Origin: Gemmatimonadota bacterium
GTDB lineage: Bacteria; Gemmatimonadota; Gemmatimonadetes; Gemmatimonadales; Gemmatimonadaceae
NCBI GenBank assembly: GCA_021324775.1
Contig: JAJPIM010000045.1
Location: 62,001 to 126,000 of the forward strand
DNA: 64,000 nucleotides
Reading direction: 5' to 3'
A program made the position numbers and the translations under genes. The notes below the pieces were generated by a model. It saw only the letters and a list, made by a program, of their open reading frames with translations. It had not been told where the DNA came from and did no database searches. Shown piece after piece: positions 32,243 through 46,057 of this stretch (positions are counted from its first letter, which is position 1; each line of letters begins with the position of its first letter).

Positions 32243-33908
32243 TCAGTCCGGCGTCCCGAGGTAGTTGTCGATCTGGGCGCGCTGCAGGGTCCCGGAATAG
32301 TCCACGTAACCGACCTTGGTCTCGGTATAGAAGTCGTACACTTCCCAGCCGCCCTCACGGTGGCCGTTCCCCGTCTGCTTCACGCCGCCGAATGGCAGGT
32401 GCGCCTCGGCGCCGATCGTCGGGGCATTGATATACGTGATGCCGTTGTCAAGTTCCGCCAGCGCCCGGAACGCCAGCGAGACGTCGCGGGTGTACACGGA
32501 CGACGACAAGCCGTATCGCACGTCATTGTTCACGGCGAACGCTTCATCGACGGTGTCGACGCGGATCACTGACAGGACCGGTCCGAAGATCTCCTCCTGC
32601 TCCAGCCGGCTCCCCGGCGTGACGCCCTCGAAGATCGTCGGCTGAAAGAACCACCCCTTGTCCAGGGCGCCGCCCGTGGCGCGTTTCCCGCCCGTGACGA
32701 GCCGCGCACCCTGGGTGCGGCCAATGGCGATGTATTCCTCGACCTTGTCGCGCGACGCCTCGTGGATCAGCGGCCCGACATCGGTCCCCGGCTTCCGGCC
32801 ATCGCCGAGGCGGAGGGCGTGCACCCGATCCGCGAGCCGCGCCAGCACGGTGTCGTGAATGCCGCGCTGGAGCACGAGACGCGACGTCGCGGTGCAGCGC
32901 TGCCCCGTGGTGCCGAACGCCCCCCACAGCACGCCCTCGAGAGCCAGATCGAGATCTGCGTCATTGAGGACGATCTGTGCGTTCTTGCCGCCCATCTCGA
33001 GGGACAGCCGCTTGTGCATCCGGCCGCACACCTCGCCGATCCGGCTGCCGGTGTCCGTGGAGCCGGTGAACGACACGAGGGGAATCCCCGGGTGTGCCAC
33101 GATCGCGGCGCCGGCCTCCCCGTCCCCGTGCACGAGCTGGATGACGTCCGGCGGCAATCCCGCCTCGAGCAGAATCTCGACGAACACGGTCCCGGTGTGC
33201 GGCACATCCTCGGCCGGCTTGAACACGCACGCATTCCCGCAGACGAGCGCCGGGAACATTTTCCACGTCGGAATCGCCAGCGGGAAATTGAACGGCGTGA
33301 TGATGCCGCAGACTCCCACCGGGCGCCGGTAGCTCATCGCCCATTTGGCGCGCAGCTCACTCGGCACGGTCCGGCCGAACAACTGGCGGCCCATCGTCGC
33401 CGCGTAAAATGCCGTATCGATCCCTTCCTGCACATCGCCCCGCGTCTCGGCGAGGGGCTTGCCCATCTCCCGCGTCATCAGGTTCGCGATCTCTTCCTTG
33501 CGGGCGACGAGAATCTCACCGACCCGGCGAAGCACGTCTCCACGGGCGGGCGCCGGCGTCCGCCTCCATCGCTCGAAGCCCCGCTGCGCGGACCGGACCG
33601 CCGCATCCACGTCGGCCGGACCAGACCGGGGAAACCGGCCGACGATGTCCGTCGTGTCCGCGGGATTCACGTCATCGAACGTTGAGCCGCCCGATGCGGG
33701 GACCCAGCGGCCGGCTATGAAATTCTGAAAGACGCGCACGCTGCTCGGGGCAGCCTTCCTCGCATCGCTCTTCGTGTCGTCCTTCGTGCTGTTCTTCGCA
33801 TTGTTCTTCGCATTGCCCTTCGCATTGCTTTTCGCAGCAGCCCTCTCGGGAGCCTTCGCAGCGTTCCTGCCGGCGCCCCTGCCATCACTCTTCGCGTTGC
33901 GCGGACGG

Positions 33909-33931
<23 letters not shown>
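32243..33931 (-). CDS. aldehyde dehydrogenase with Lys-rich N-terminal tail
   Basis: NAD(P)-dependent oxidation of an aldehyde, substrate not identified. The catalytic domain (from about residue 65) has GIITPFNFPLAIPTWKMFPAL, FTGSTDTGSRI, the general-base Glu in LEMGGKNAQIVLND, and the nucleophile in TTGQRCTATSRLV. The first 64 residues are Ala/Lys/Asn-rich, with a near-periodic tetrapeptide (SNAK, GNAK, NNAK, NSTK, DDTK, SDAR), and look disordered. The ATG at 33931 overlaps the NtrC-type gene by 23 bases (562 residues). A GTG at 33739 would drop the tail and give 498 residues, the usual family length. Confidence 0.9.
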
Positions 33932-35276
<1,345 letters not shown>

Positions 35277-39658: not shown

Positions 39659-41431
39659 CTACGTTCCGCGCGCGACCACCGCCGGCGCGGAGCGCCCGGC
39701 CCCCGGGGCCGGGGCGCCAAATACCAGCCGGCGCCACCACCCGGCACGCCGTTCAGCGCGTGACACGGTTTTCACCGTTGCGCGCCAAGCGCGTTGCATG
39801 GCGGCCGCGTCGGCGAACCGGCTCTCGGGCGTGATGGCCAGTCCGCGGCGCAACCACGGCTCCAGCGCTTCGTGGAACTCATCGAGGTCCAGTCCGCCGG
39901 CCAGTTGCCGGGCCAGGATCGCTCTCGCATCCCCGTCGCCGAACGGCGGGCGCCCCGACAGCACGAACGCGACGATGGCAGCGATCGCGAAGCAGTCCAC
40001 GCTCGACCCCTGCTGTTCCCCCAGCAACTGCTCGGGCGCCGCAAACGCCGGTGTGCCGGTTGGCCCACCGGGCGTCTCGCCCGGAATGTACGCGATACCG
40101 AAATCACTCATACGCCACCGGCGATAGCGATCAATCAGGATGTTCTCCGGCTTGAGGTCGCGGTGGACGATCCCGCTCCCATGCGCCGCACTCAGACCGT
40201 CGAGCACGAGATCCACCTGCGGCGCGATCTCGGCGATCGGCCGCGGTCCGCTGCGTGCGATCAGATCGGCTACCGACCCACCCTCGGCCAGCTCCATGGT
40301 GTACCATGCGACATCGCCGCGCCGGTCCCAATCGTAGACGGGAACGATCGCCGGGTGGGCGAGCTGCGCCGCAAGCTGCGCTTCCCGCCGAAAACGGGAG
40401 ACCGCGGCATCGTCTCGCGCGACGCGCGGATGCAGCATCTTGAGCGCGACCTCCCGCTCCAGCGACAGATCCCGGACGCGCCACACCGAGCCGAACGTCC
40501 CGGTGCCGAGCGGTGACAGCACTTCGTAGTCATCGCCGAGGGCCCAGCGCAGGCGCTGCTCGCTCCCCTCTGGCGCGCCGCTGCCATCCTCGACATCGCC
40601 CAGGGCCTGTCCCGACCGTGGCGGCGCGGAGACCCGCTCGAGCGTGCGGAGCAGCGCGCCCACGGACGCGAACCGTGAATCAGGCGCCGCCAACAGCGCG
40701 CGGTCCAGCACCGTTGCCAATCCCTGCGGACACTCGGGGCGCACCCATCGGACGGGCGGTACGTCTTGCGCGGGTGGCAGCTCGCCCGTGAGCAGCATGA
40801 AGCACACGGCGGCGAGCTGCCACTGATCGCTGCGGACATCCGGCATCCACCGGCCGTCGGAGCTCTCCGGGGGCGCGGGCGTCCAGCGCCGGTCGGGCGC
40901 GAGCCCCGCCGGGATGGCTTCGCGGGGTACGGCCCACTGCCAGCCGAGGAGCCACAACCGGCGCGTGGGCGTGACCCACACGGTCTGTGGCGAGAGCGCG
41001 CCGTGGACGCCGCCGCTGTCGTGGATATACGCGAGCGCCGATCCCGCCGCGCGCAGCACCTGCACGACATACGGCACTTCGTTGGGACCGAGGCGGGCGA
41101 CTCGCGCGGCGATCGTCTCACCCTCGATCCATCGGCGTAGATATCCGGGTCCGCGGCGCGTCTCGCGCGCGACCGACCAATAGTGGTACGTGGTCGGTAC
41201 CGACGGATGGCTCCGGTGCGCGAGCTGCCGGGCCTCCGCCGCCAGCCACGCATAGTGATCCGGGTTGGGCGCCGTGACGAGCGCCAGCGACCGGCCCAGC
41301 GCATCGACCACTTCCTGGGCGTGCCGGAACTCGCCGGTCACGCCGGTCGAGCCCCAACTCCAGTCGTTCGGGAGCTGCCACCCGGCCAGATGCGCCGGCA
41401 GCTCGCGCGTCGTCACGTTGATGCCGCTCAT
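39659..41431 (-). CDS. tandem pseudokinase plus Ser/Thr protein kinase, cytosolic
   Basis: A 590-residue protein with two kinase-like halves. The N-terminal half (about 20-285) has a kinase-like layout, but the catalytic loop reads HGALSPQTVWVT instead of HRDLKPEN and no DFG follows, so it is probably inactive. The C-terminal half (from about 305) has a Gly-rich loop (PLGTGTFGSVW), VALKML lysine, HRDLKPENILI at 423-430, SDFGIAY near 443 and an APE motif, so it should be active. No membrane segment or receptor is visible. The ATG overlaps the stop of the upstream histidine kinase gene in an ATGA arrangement, so the two should be produced together. Confidence 0.88.
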   Translation of the reverse strand: MSGINVTTRELPAHLAGWQLPNDWSWGSTGVTGEFRHAQEVVDALGRSLALVTAPNPDHYAWLAAEARQLAHRSHPSVPTTYHYWSVARETRRGPGYLRRWIEGETIAARVARLGPNEVPYVVQVLRAAGSALAYIHDSGGVHGALSPQTVWVTPTRRLWLLGWQWAVPREAIPAGLAPDRRWTPAPPESSDGRWMPDVRSDQWQLAAVCFMLLTGELPPAQDVPPVRWVRPECPQGLATVLDRALLAAPDSRFASVGALLRTLERVSAPPRSGQALGDVEDGSGAPEGSEQRLRWALGDDYEVLSPLGTGTFGSVWRVRDLSLEREVALKMLHPRVARDDAAVSRFRREAQLAAQLAHPAIVPVYDWDRRGDVAWYTMELAEGGSVADLIARSGPRPIAEIAPQVDLVLDGLSAAHGSGIVHRDLKPENILIDRYRRWRMSDFGIAYIPGETPGGPTGTPAFAAPEQLLGEQQGSSVDCFAIAAIVAFVLSGRPPFGDGDARAILARQLAGGLDLDEFHEALEPWLRRGLAITPESRFADAAAMQRAWRATVKTVSRAERRAGWWRRLVFGAPAPGAGRSAPAVVARGT

Positions 41432-44400
41432 GCGACAGACAACGCTAATACAATCGTGACTCGCGTACCGGTCCCGGGGTCGCTTTCCACTACAATCGTA
41501 CCGCCCCACCCGTCGACGATGCGGCGGCTGAGGGCCAGCCCCAACCCGCTGCCACTCGTCCGCGTGGAGAAATGCGGCTCGAATATACGGGGCAGGACAT
41601 CGGCGCCGATGCCTTCACCGTCGTCGTCCACGGTGATGATCGCGCGTCCCGCGCCATCGCGTCCGGGCGTCGCGTGGGGACGGTCGGATGCCCCACGCTC
41701 GACCGCGACGTGCACCGACACCTGCCGCGCACGCGCCAGGCGAGCGTTCTCGAGCACGTTGAGCAGCACCTCACGCAGGTCATCGGCGCGCGCGAGCGCC
41801 ACGACGGCATCGTCGGCGCCGGTGAGCCCCCACGTCACACCGCCCCCTGCACCGAGGCGTTCGAGTTCGACGACATCTTGCACCACGTGTACGATGTCCG
41901 TCGGCTCGGCCGGCGCCCGCTCGTCCGGCGCGGAGCCGTAGCGGCTGAACGCCCGCGCGATCTGATCGAGCCGGTCGATCTCCGCGAGAATGCGTCCCGC
42001 GTTCTGGTCGAGGATGCGATCGAAGTCGGCCCGGCGCGCCGCCCTGGCCCGCTGGAGATGCTGGATGCCGAGGCGGATCGGGGTCAGCGGGTTCTTGATT
42101 TCGTGCGCGACCTGCCGAGCCATTTCGCCCCACGCGAGCACGCGCTGGCTCTCTCCGAAATCGGCGGCCATTCTCCTGAACGCGGCGAATACGGGCACGA
42201 ACTCGACCGGCGGATCCCCCGCGAGATCCGGTTCGCGGTCACCGACCGCCATGGCGAGCGCCGCGCGGCGGAGGGCATCGATCGGGCGCGCGAAGCGCCG
42301 CGCGGCGAGTCCGCTCAACCCCAGCGCGGCGGCCGCTCCGAGGACCGTGGTGAACAGCACGAGAATCCCGAGGTCATCGCGGCGCGTGTCGAGACCCGCT
42401 TCGTCGCCGCGGGCCGGAGCGGCGAGGACGACGCGATCGCCACCGGCGGCATCGACGGCCCGGTAGCCGATCAAGACGCGGCCGCCGCCAAGTTCGGCCG
42501 CGCGGCTGGCCCGCACCTCGTTGCCGAGACCGAGGCCCAGCTCGAGGTCCGGACGCAGGAACCGGCCGAGCGGCGCGAGCGCATCATAGAGCGAATCGCT
42601 CGTCGAACGGAGCGCGCCGTCGTCGTAGAGCAGAATCGGCGTCCCGACCAGCGCGGCGTCGGTGGAGAGATCGTCGAGACCTCCCGAAGCAACACCGCGA
42701 AGCGTCTGCCACACGAGCAGCGCCCGCTCCTCGGCATCGTCCGATCGCAGCCGCCGGTAGGACCACGCCGCGAACATCACCGCCGGGACGACGAAGAAAC
42801 CGAAGAGCACGATCGTGAGCTGCGTGCGATAGCTCCGCGACCAGCGCCGGGCGTGGCCCATCATCCATCGCGCCAGCACGCCATCACCGGCGACGCTGAC
42901 AGCCCACAGCAGGCTGGCAGCCAGCAGATCCAGCACCACGAGCAGGACCGCGCGCTGGACGAGCGCATCGAACGGCCGCAGCTCGACCTCCACATGCGCA
43001 CGCGCCGGCCCCGCGCTCGTCGGCACGAGCCAATCGCCGTGCAGCGCGCTCCCGGCGCGCGTCCAGCGCACTGGCACGCCTTTGTACCGGGCCAGCGGGC
43101 CCGCAAACCCGGAGGCCGCCGCCTGGACCGCGACGGAATCGGCCCCGCGGCCGACTGCACTATCGACTCCCAGCAGATCGCCTTGTGGCGCACTGGCCGC
43201 GGTGCGCCGCTCGGGAACCACCTCGAGCAGCGAGATCGTGTAGGGTGGCGACAGCCCGGGATCGGGAGCGAGGCCGAGCAGCGGTGCGAAGGAGTTGGCG
43301 GCGATCAGGCGCGTCTGCGGGGCCACGACGACCGTCGTCACGCTGCCGTTCGCCGCGGGCACGGCGAGGACGAGCTGCACGCCGGGTGAGCCCGCGGCCT
43401 CGGACAAGACGACCGCGCGCCCCACGAGCGCCTCACTCGCGATCGCCGCCACCAATCCGGTGTCGGTGTCGAACCGGGCCAGTTCCAGCGTGACGTCCGG
43501 TCCGCCACCGGCCGCGCGGACGGCGAGGCGCACCGGGTAGTCGGCGGCCGCGAGGTCGGAACGCGCGTAGCGATGCAGGAGGTCGGCGCGGCTGACCGGA
43601 GGCGGAGCCGACGCGAGCTCGGTCCCGAAGCGATCGAGGAGCGCCACCGCATTGGGATCCGGGACCGCGAGTCCGGCGAGGTCGCGTTCGGCGAGCACGA
43701 TTCGTTTCTGCGCCGTTGTGCCCCACACGACCACCGCGGACCCCAGCGCCGCGACGAGGGCGGACAGGAACACCCTCCAGCGGGAGCCGCGCGCAAAGGC
43801 GGCCGCCGCGCCTGCCAGGCACCACGGGATCGCGTACCACGCGGGCCATCCGCCTGGTGCAACCCAGAGGATCGGTCCGAGGACCGCGGCCGCGCCGGCG
43901 ATGACGACGGCGACGACCGGCCAGAGACCCTGCCGCTCCGCCAGCGCACTCCGGACCGCGACCGATGCGCCAACGAGCAGAGCGGCCGCACCCAGCGCGA
44001 GCGCAATCTGCCAGCCGACCCAGAGCGTGAGCGGGACCGCGGCACCTGGAGGCGTGATGCCGCCGGCAACATACGCGACGGCGAAGGGCGCGCCGAGGCT
44101 CGCCACGAGCGCGATGGCTACGGCCAGCAATCGGGGACGGAGCCGGGCCCGGGCCCGCGCCGCAGCGAACGCGGCCAGCAGCGCGATCGCGCTGGTCGCG
44201 CCCAGCGCACCGATGCTCGCCGTGTACGGGCCCCCGACCGGCGAGAAGAAATACGTCGGGTCGACCAGCCGGCTGGTGTTGGAGAATGCGTTGAGCGGAA
44301 CGATCGCGAGCGCCGCGAGCGGGACCGCGAGCGCGACCAACCGGCGGCCTGGCGCCGCCCGGCGCGGACGCCATTCCGCGACGAGGAATCCCACCAGCGC

Positions 44401-45273
44401 CACCGCGAACGCCAGCGCGCCGGTGTTCTGGGCTTGCTCCGTCACGCGCTCGGCCGCCTCTTCGAGTTGCGGCGGGATCGGCCGCACGGTCGCGAGAGGG
44501 ACCCCTGCGGGCTCGAATGCGGCCGGCGTGTTGTCGGCGATCGGCGGCGCGCCCGCGGAGGGTGGCATCAGCGCGAATCCGTCGACACCGGTGCGCTCCG
44601 CGATCGTCTCGTCCAGCGGGCGCGAGAGCCGGTCGGCGGGCGGTTCGGCATGCAGCAGTGCCACGGCGACCGCCCGGGCGGTACCCCGCTGGACCGTGGC
44701 CTGCAGGGCGACATAGAAGGGCGTCCGTACCACTGCGAATGGTGCGCCGCTCGTGTCTGGCACTGTCCGCAGGGTCCCGCTCCACGCTACGGGGCGGCCA
44801 TCGCGCGACAGCACGATGCTCCGCTCACCGTCGCCGCGCGCGAGCGGCGCCAGCCATGCGAACGCGTCGGCGGGGTCGGCTGGTGCGTCGAGGGCCTTCG
44901 TCGCGCTGTTGCGCAAATCGGACGCGAGCGCCGTCAGTTCGTCGTGCATCACCGCGGCACTGTGCCGAGTGATCGCCGCGACCGTGTCGTCCCACGAACG
45001 GACAACGCGATCGAGCGCGACCTGGCCCATGGTCGCGAGCGCACAGAACGTAACCAGTGCGAGCACGGCGACCACCGGCCCGAGCGTCCGCTGCCGGCGC
45101 CCGATCCACGCGGCTGCCACGGTAGCGGCCACACAGACGACGAGGTAAGGTACGGCGGGCGTCTGAAGCCATCCGGCAGCGGCCAGCAGTGCGCACGCGG
45201 CGCTGGCGGACCACCAGAGTGAACGCGGTGGCTGCTGGCGGCGCGGCCGGCGCACCGGACGGAGCAGCGGCAC
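41428..45273 (-). CDS. giant NtrY-like sensor histidine kinase
   Basis: A very large sensor kinase of about 1281 residues. It has roughly 14 hydrophobic segments: three at the N-terminus, a cluster of about eight in the middle, then further pairs, separated by three extracytoplasmic stretches. A HAMP-like linker (FARPIDALRRAALAMAVGDREP) leads to the H-box (MARQVAHEIKNPLTPIRLG, His near 1056) and the HATPase_c domain (DDDGEGIGADVL, SGLGLALSRRIVDGWGG). The HEIKNPLTPIRL block resembles NtrY. Usual NtrY proteins are near 700 residues, so the N-terminal membrane region is enlarged. The start is uncertain: GTG at 45273 is preferred because the creatininase-family gene diverges at 45338. The downstream kinase gene overlaps by four bases. 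Confidence 0.85.
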   Translation of the reverse strand: MPLLRPVRRPRRQQPPRSLWWSASAACALLAAAGWLQTPAVPYLVVCVAATVAAAWIGRRQRTLGPVVAVLALVTFCALATMGQVALDRVVRSWDDTVAAITRHSAAVMHDELTALASDLRNSATKALDAPADPADAFAWLAPLARGDGERSIVLSRDGRPVAWSGTLRTVPDTSGAPFAVVRTPFYVALQATVQRGTARAVAVALLHAEPPADRLSRPLDETIAERTGVDGFALMPPSAGAPPIADNTPAAFEPAGVPLATVRPIPPQLEEAAERVTEQAQNTGALAFAVALVGFLVAEWRPRRAAPGRRLVALAVPLAALAIVPLNAFSNTSRLVDPTYFFSPVGGPYTASIGALGATSAIALLAAFAAARARARLRPRLLAVAIALVASLGAPFAVAYVAGGITPPGAAVPLTLWVGWQIALALGAAALLVGASVAVRSALAERQGLWPVVAVVIAGAAAVLGPILWVAPGGWPAWYAIPWCLAGAAAAFARGSRWRVFLSALVAALGSAVVVWGTTAQKRIVLAERDLAGLAVPDPNAVALLDRFGTELASAPPPVSRADLLHRYARSDLAAADYPVRLAVRAAGGGPDVTLELARFDTDTGLVAAIASEALVGRAVVLSEAAGSPGVQLVLAVPAANGSVTTVVVAPQTRLIAANSFAPLLGLAPDPGLSPPYTISLLEVVPERRTAASAPQGDLLGVDSAVGRGADSVAVQAAASGFAGPLARYKGVPVRWTRAGSALHGDWLVPTSAGPARAHVEVELRPFDALVQRAVLLVVLDLLAASLLWAVSVAGDGVLARWMMGHARRWSRSYRTQLTIVLFGFFVVPAVMFAAWSYRRLRSDDAEERALLVWQTLRGVASGGLDDLSTDAALVGTPILLYDDGALRSTSDSLYDALAPLGRFLRPDLELGLGLGNEVRASRAAELGGGRVLIGYRAVDAAGGDRVVLAAPARGDEAGLDTRRDDLGILVLFTTVLGAAAALGLSGLAARRFARPIDALRRAALAMAVGDREPDLAGDPPVEFVPVFAAFRRMAADFGESQRVLAWGEMARQVAHEIKNPLTPIRLGIQHLQRARAARRADFDRILDQNAGRILAEIDRLDQIARAFSRYGSAPDERAPAEPTDIVHVVQDVVELERLGAGGGVTWGLTGADDAVVALARADDLREVLLNVLENARLARARQVSVHVAVERGASDRPHATPGRDGAGRAIITVDDDGEGIGADVLPRIFEPHFSTRTSGSGLGLALSRRIVDGWGGTIVVESDPGTGTRVTIVLALSVA

Positions 45274-45337: not shown

Positions 45338-46057
45338 ATGACGACTCCGCAGCGTCTAAAGGATCTCGCGCCTGATCGCATCAAGGCAGCCATCGCCGCC
45401 GATCCGCGCCTCATCGTGCCAATCGGGACCTGCGATCCTCATGGGCCTCATCTGCCGATCGGGTGCGATACCCTGCTCGTCGAACGCCTGGCCGACGATC
45501 TGTCCGCCGAATTCGGCATGCTCCGGGCACCCACGGTGGAGTACGGGGTCAGTGCCGATGCGGCGCGCGGCCATCCCCGTTCCGGGTCGGTGCGCAAGAA
45601 GACCCTTCACCTGTTGCTCAATGACCTGCTCTCGTCATGGGAGCATGCGGGCATCCGGGAGTTCATCCTGCTCACCGCCAACGGCGACGATGCGCACCGC
45701 GAAGCACTCGCCACGGTGATGACGGCGGCGGCGCGGGTCCGGGTCGTCGATGCGTGCGCTGCCAACGTGACGGGTCTCATCGCCGGTCCAGACGGGTGGC
45801 TCTGCGGGGGTGAAGCGGACACTTCGCTCATGTTGTACCTCGCTCCCCATCTCGTCGACATGCGTCTGGCCGAACAGTATACCCCGGACACGACGAACCG
45901 GCGACCGGGCACGTGGGGATGGCCGCGCGCGAACCGGGATGTCCAGCGAAGCCCGGCGGCCGTCGGGGCCACGGCCGCCAGCGGTGCCGCGCTGTACGAC
46001 CATATCCGCGCCCGTATCGCCCACCGGATCGTCGCCGCGTCCGGCACGCCCAACTGA
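45338..46057 (+). CDS. creatininase-family amidohydrolase, atypical metal motif
   Basis: A 239-residue protein of the creatininase/MftE/ArfB superfamily: PIGTCDPHGPHLPIGCDT at the start matches the metal-binding GSxEQHGPHLPLxTD block, and GGEADTSLMLYLAP matches the later HAGExETS block. Differences from the family are Glu to Asp in the first block, and loss of the usual GHGGN motif, read here as NGDDAH. The family includes creatininase and FAPy deformylase; the substrate is unknown here. Start is ATG 45338, or TTG 45332. Divergent from the giant histidine kinase. Confidence 0.8.
   Translation: MTTPQRLKDLAPDRIKAAIAADPRLIVPIGTCDPHGPHLPIGCDTLLVERLADDLSAEFGMLRAPTVEYGVSADAARGHPRSGSVRKKTLHLLLNDLLSSWEHAGIREFILLTANGDDAHREALATVMTAAARVRVVDACAANVTGLIAGPDGWLCGGEADTSLMLYLAPHLVDMRLAEQYTPDTTNRRPGTWGWPRANRDVQRSPAAVGATAASGAALYDHIRARIAHRIVAASGTPN

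Follow-up and report, generated by a model that had tools for sequence, protein, structure and literature searches.

JAK, with its JH2-JH1 domains, and GCN2 are eukaryotic tandem pseudokinase-kinase proteins. Tandem kinases are also found in plants, for example WTK1 (PMC6170490). Bacterial pseudokinases are largely unstudied; families such as MviN/ActPs3, GLW and EssB are membrane-linked and have no live kinase alongside, and the recent review that describes them (PMC12599244) nowhere uses the word 'tandem'. In B. subtilis, phosphorylation by Hanks kinases raises the phosphotransfer of the histidine kinase DegS (PMC3033389). In cyanobacteria, the dual Ser/Thr-His kinases HstK and cbSTKIII are each one polypeptide with a GAF domain (PMC2176072). 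The NtrY-NtrX two-component system has an envelope role in R. sphaeroides (PMC7240162).

The locus described here lies on the minus strand of a 64,000-nucleotide stretch of Gemmatimonadota DNA (the window). It comprises a gene for a giant membrane sensor histidine kinase (HK) and a gene for a tandem pseudokinase-kinase protein (the double kinase). An earlier note on this DNA had proposed that the two proteins form a two-tier phosphorylation module matching no described system. The second part of this claim holds for the pairing itself, as the literature yielded neither a report of an HK paired with a pseudokinase-kinase nor a two-component operon described as containing such a protein; the literature search also found no paper on Gemmatimonas with both kinase types. 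It does not hold for the wider theme, since Ser/Thr kinases acting on HKs and fused Ser/Thr-His kinases are both known.

The gene pair and its kinase domains

The HK gene (41428-45273, minus strand) encodes 1,281 amino acids from a GTG at 45273. Its frame is open from 45414 to 41428, giving 1,328 amino acids when counted from the most upstream ATG at 45414; the GTG is a plausible start because the alignment to relatives begins near residues 47-84. Pfam places three domains at the C-terminus: HAMP (42163-42306, minus strand, residues 1037-1084; PF00672, 26.6 bits), the HisKA dimerisation domain (41959-42132, minus strand; PF00512, 29.6 bits) and the ATP-binding HATPase_c domain (41440-41787, minus strand; PF02518, 77.4 bits). 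The phospho-acceptor His1104 (codon 42103-42105) lies in the motif HEIKNP, and HATPase_c has its N and G boxes. These domains confirm that this gene of the pair encodes a sensor histidine kinase of the HisKA type.

About 12 hydrophobic segments are present in the remainder of the protein. Residues 328-566 hold seven of them and the region near residues 87-129 two; the other three lie at 823-841, 866-884 and 1015-1033. Hydrophobicity also rises, more weakly, in two places at 652-697, which probably do not cross the membrane. The search turned up no known sensor domain in HK, and the AlphaFold2 model of the sensor part (pLDDT 43) was too poor for a fold search. HK had been called NtrY-like, and this description is only partly upheld. 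The kinase core agrees with it; of the NtrY architecture (N-terminal region, HAMP, PAS, HisKA, HATPase_c), HK has only HAMP, HisKA and HATPase_c. Pfam detected no NtrY N-terminal or PAS domain at E<=0.01, and none of the 25 best NCBIfam hits is an NtrY model.

The double kinase gene (39659-41431, minus strand) encodes 590 amino acids. It overlaps HK by an ATGA at 41428-41431 on the minus strand, read directly from the sequence. The junction is ...GTCTGTCGC-ATGA-GCGGC..., in which the HK stop TGA occupies 41430-41428 and the double kinase ATG occupies 41431-41429. The identical overlap is present in the close relatives L129 (81% identical), L091, L093 and L131.

The C-terminal half of the double kinase (39752-40528, minus strand) matches Pkinase (PF00069) with 143.7 bits over residues 302-505. 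It has the motifs of a Hanks-type Ser/Thr kinase: the glycine loop (GTGTFG), the VAIK lysine (in VALK), HRD (in HRDLKPEN), DFG and APE. From these intact motifs, it should phosphorylate Ser/Thr. Defence kinases (PglW, MAD6, PD-T4-6) were rejected as an identification; the similarity is that of kinases in general, with PglW at 99 bits against a cut-off of 990 and MAD6 at 165 against 460.

The N-terminal half (about residues 24-270; 40622-41362, minus strand) has no Pfam match, even at E 10. It matches PknB along the whole domain in phmmer (E 4.9e-11) and aligns with its own C-terminal half in hhalign (probability 98.7, E 3.5e-16, 25% identity), which rules out a non-kinase fold. In the AlphaFold2 model of the double kinase, which is of moderate confidence (pLDDT 75.5, pTM 0.54), the strands and helices of the N-terminal half occur in kinase order. 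A fold search with the double kinase matched known protein kinases only; about one kinase domain was covered in most matches.

All three catalytic motifs of the N-terminal half have been replaced: the VAIK lysine by Val, HRD by HGA (codons 40997-41005) and DFG by LGW. The tandem had been described as a pseudokinase lacking HRD and DFG followed by a Ser/Thr kinase, and this is borne out. The losses are common to 27 of 27 close orthologues examined, with the C-terminal motifs intact in all 27, so decay in the window's genome alone is ruled out; an exception to the loss of the DFG Asp is the relative L084, with LDW at this position. An alignment of 28 proteins shows no variation at W62, E66, H143-G144, W164, W166 and D202. 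Mean identity is 55% for the N-terminal half vs 64% for the C-terminal half. Since the losses are fixed, the domain has invariant residues of its own and its conservation is near that of the C-terminal half, it is a pseudokinase domain that has been maintained, not a decayed remnant. By analogy with the pseudokinase halves of other tandem kinases, it is most likely an allosteric or docking half, with no ordinary phosphotransfer possible. A regulatory role for this half is, on balance, the better supposition.

A regulator co-inherited with HK

HK has no adjacent regulator gene. A sigma-54-type response regulator is encoded 6.2 kb downstream of the HK stop (33909-35276, minus strand). Its best NCBIfam hit is the NtrX model NF051870, with 464 bits, which is under the cut-off of 600. 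The usual motif of sigma-54 activators is GAFTGA; this protein has GSFTGA in its place.

An HK orthologue is present in 98 of 149 genomes of the class. Of the 149, 96 have both HK and the NtrX-type regulator, 50 have neither and 3 are discordant (phi 0.956); the presence thresholds were placed where the score distributions have clear gaps. The pattern is that of joint inheritance, as in an NtrYX-like cognate pair, and the three discordant genomes are all fragmented assemblies. The double absences fall in at least four separate lineages within families that otherwise hold both genes (g5, g39, g63, G117), as well as in families f4 and f10. Because the genomes are related, a Fisher P-value is meaningless here as a probability; the evidence is the repeated joint loss. 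Missing contigs are not supported as a cause of the co-loss, as rpoN (sigma-54) is kept in 147 of the 149 genomes.

The near-perfect co-occurrence makes the regulator at 33909 the likely partner of HK, despite the 6 kb between the genes. Phosphotransfer from HK to this regulator is highly probable. The earlier note had linked HK with an NtrC-type regulator at 33909, and phyletic co-loss supports this link. It also points to a likely regulator of this giant sensor kinase, which is found across the class.

The window's genome (G000) is rich in signalling genes, with 37 Pkinase matches, 40 HisKA matches and 19 match rows for Sigma54_activat. In two relatives, an NtrC-type two-component pair other than HK and the NtrX-type regulator, and 31-42% identical to these, is encoded near a double kinase homologue (L130:5695-8744; L124:10924-13607).

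Conservation of the pair and possible role of the double kinase

Across the class, HK lies in one conserved block. On one flank are divergent genes for a creatininase-family protein, a hypothetical protein, TolC, MFP and ABC components; in the window this series begins with the creatininase-family gene (45338-46057, plus strand; PF02633, 123.9 bits). On the other flank, at a variable distance, are genes for YifB, LarE, the NtrX-type regulator, an aldehyde dehydrogenase, LepB and a sigma factor. The double kinase is part of this block only in the window's own family of soil bacteria, the Gemmatimonadaceae; in the rest of the class, the same chromosomal block holds HK without it.

Among 148 genomes of the family, 126 have a double kinase orthologue, 129 have HK and 116 have both. 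The two genes are adjacent and codirectional in 88 of these 116 (87 counted, plus G174, in which the HK match is truncated). Among 21 loci read, the gap between them is about -13 to +43 bp in all but one, where it is 183 bp. The pair is thus conserved in relatives. The earlier note had named a non-conserved pair or a non-kinase fold of the N-terminal half as refuting outcomes, and the analysis gave neither. Adjacency on one strand, the recurrent ATGA and the short gaps rule out a chance overlap and support the suggestion that the two proteins are made together. The genes are likely to be co-transcribed. In 19 of the 116 genomes (genera g6, g7, g77, g80 and g83), the double kinase is inverted relative to HK, mostly at a distance of about 2 kb or less; co-translation with HK is therefore not required.

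Several variations were seen around the double kinase in relatives. In one Gemmatimonadaceae bin (L133:3446-11423) its neighbours are YifB and LarE, which places it on the block's NtrX side, and it does not adjoin HK. Many relatives have, next to the double kinase, another aldehyde-dehydrogenase-like gene that shares about 33% identity with the one at 32243; none was seen beside the window's copy. This gene lies between HK and an inverted double kinase in L070, L084 and L087, and beside the double kinase in L078, L081, L083, L092 and L098. In genus g8 and one g2 relative, no stop ends the double kinase frame, which passes through a signal-like hydrophobic segment and on into a TonB-dependent receptor, making open frames of about 1,300 codons (L071:10050-13949, L132:6001-9702, L209:168-4109, L210:67-3960, L211:799-4695).

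Homologues with the same two-domain layout, 37-39% identical, are present in another family of the same order, elsewhere in those genomes; neighbourhood comparison gave no clear conserved partner near them. In a tree of the half-domains, the N-terminal halves of the family proteins and of the order-level homologues group together, apart from the C-terminal halves (100/99). The tandem therefore predates its position beside HK; the internal branches are long, and the tree supports the grouping, not dates. Genus g12 has a second double kinase copy, about 47% identical, elsewhere in two genomes (L121:9083-10984 in G090; G180:C9:260303-262018).

The double kinase and HK can be separated in both directions. 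All four g5 genomes have lost HK and the NtrX-type regulator and kept the double kinase, which occupies the former slot of HK in both genomes whose surroundings were read. Conversely, HK and the NtrX-type regulator are kept and the double kinase is absent in g13 (4/4) and g14 (2/2), i.e. in 6 of 6 genomes. Other families of the class have HK without a double kinase orthologue. Together with the inverted copies, these losses rule out an obligate module as a general rule; an accessory tuner with further targets is compatible with them.

The reading preferred here, which is evenly poised, is that the operon of an NtrYX-like two-component system captured an accessory pseudokinase-kinase, which would tune the pathway and have a role of its own. 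HK would be the membrane sensor and the NtrX-type protein at 33909 its response regulator. In the family ancestor, a soluble tandem pseudokinase-kinase of a type already present in the order would have been inserted directly downstream of HK and become an operon member. Its C-terminal domain would provide an accessory Ser/Thr input to the HK-NtrX pair, for example by phosphorylating HK or the NtrX-type regulator. It would be dispensable for that pair and have at least one role apart from both. Tuning of HK-NtrX by the double kinase may be slightly less probable than not; it has a precedent, because Hanks kinases phosphorylate and stimulate DegS (PMC3033389). The double kinase may instead be an operon neighbour only, which borrows the HK gene's transcript and translation and acts on unrelated targets, its adjacency reflecting one ancestral insertion and no functional link. 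This is a real if lesser possibility. The restriction to one family would fit a single insertion event, the losses and retentions in g5, g13 and g14 run both ways, and the inverted copies and in-frame TonB-dependent receptor fusions suggest other associations; however, the tight codirectional order has been kept in 88 of 116 genomes, spanning about 20 genera, and the inverted gene still mostly remains within about 2 kb.

The two-tier module of the earlier note, in which HK senses and the pseudokinase half binds it and relays or gates the signal into the Ser/Thr kinase, agrees with the translational coupling and with a gene order conserved in most of the family. It is unlikely, as a separate regulator is co-inherited with HK, the double kinase persists in g5 after the loss of HK, and HK occurs without the double kinase in g13, in g14 and in every other family of the class; the inverted position in 19 genomes also fails to support it. 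Equally doubtful is the narrower idea that the pseudokinase half binds and gates HK (or the NtrX-type regulator), so that one operon would join His-Asp and Ser/Thr phosphorylation via a dead domain; if true, this would be a bacterial signalling module of undescribed type. A further proposal is that the N-terminal half is catalytic by non-canonical chemistry, like SelO, which AMPylates, or SidJ, which glutamylates. There is precedent for pseudokinases that have new activities (PMC12599244), and E66, H143-G144, W164, W166 and D202 are invariant in the 28 aligned proteins. This is nevertheless very improbable: the ATP, Mg and base motifs are all replaced in the N-terminal half, with Val for Lys, whereas Table 1 of that review gives Lys and Asp residues that are still usable in SelO and SidJ.

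Comparison with known systems

In one family, a dead/live kinase tandem has been kept beside a two-component sensor, and this gives a genetically clean way to ask whether two phosphorylation worlds are wired together. The family provides natural knock-outs in both directions, in g5 on the one hand and in g13 and g14 on the other.

Like NtrY-NtrX of Proteobacteria, the window encodes a membrane HK with HAMP and a HEIKNP-type HisKA, and a sigma-54-type regulator that matches NtrX best in NCBIfam. It differs in several respects: HK has about 12 transmembrane segments and no detected NtrY N-terminal or PAS domain, the regulator scores under the NtrX cut-off, and the two genes are 6 kb apart.

The double kinase shares with JAK, GCN2 and WTK1 a dead kinase domain beside a live one in a single chain. 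Those proteins are eukaryotic and carry further domains of other kinds; here, a regulatory role of the dead half is predicted from the architecture. As in MviN/ActPs3, GLW and EssB (PMC12599244), the N-terminal half is a Hanks-type fold without all three catalytic motifs; unlike them, it adjoins a live kinase.

A Hanks kinase and a histidine kinase are genetically linked here, as in HstK and cbSTKIII. In contrast to HstK, the link is between two genes, there is no GAF domain and a pseudokinase domain is added. As in the control of DegS, the soluble Hanks kinase could phosphorylate HK and alter its phosphotransfer. To our knowledge, the kinases that act on DegS are not pseudokinase tandems, whereas the double kinase is such a tandem.
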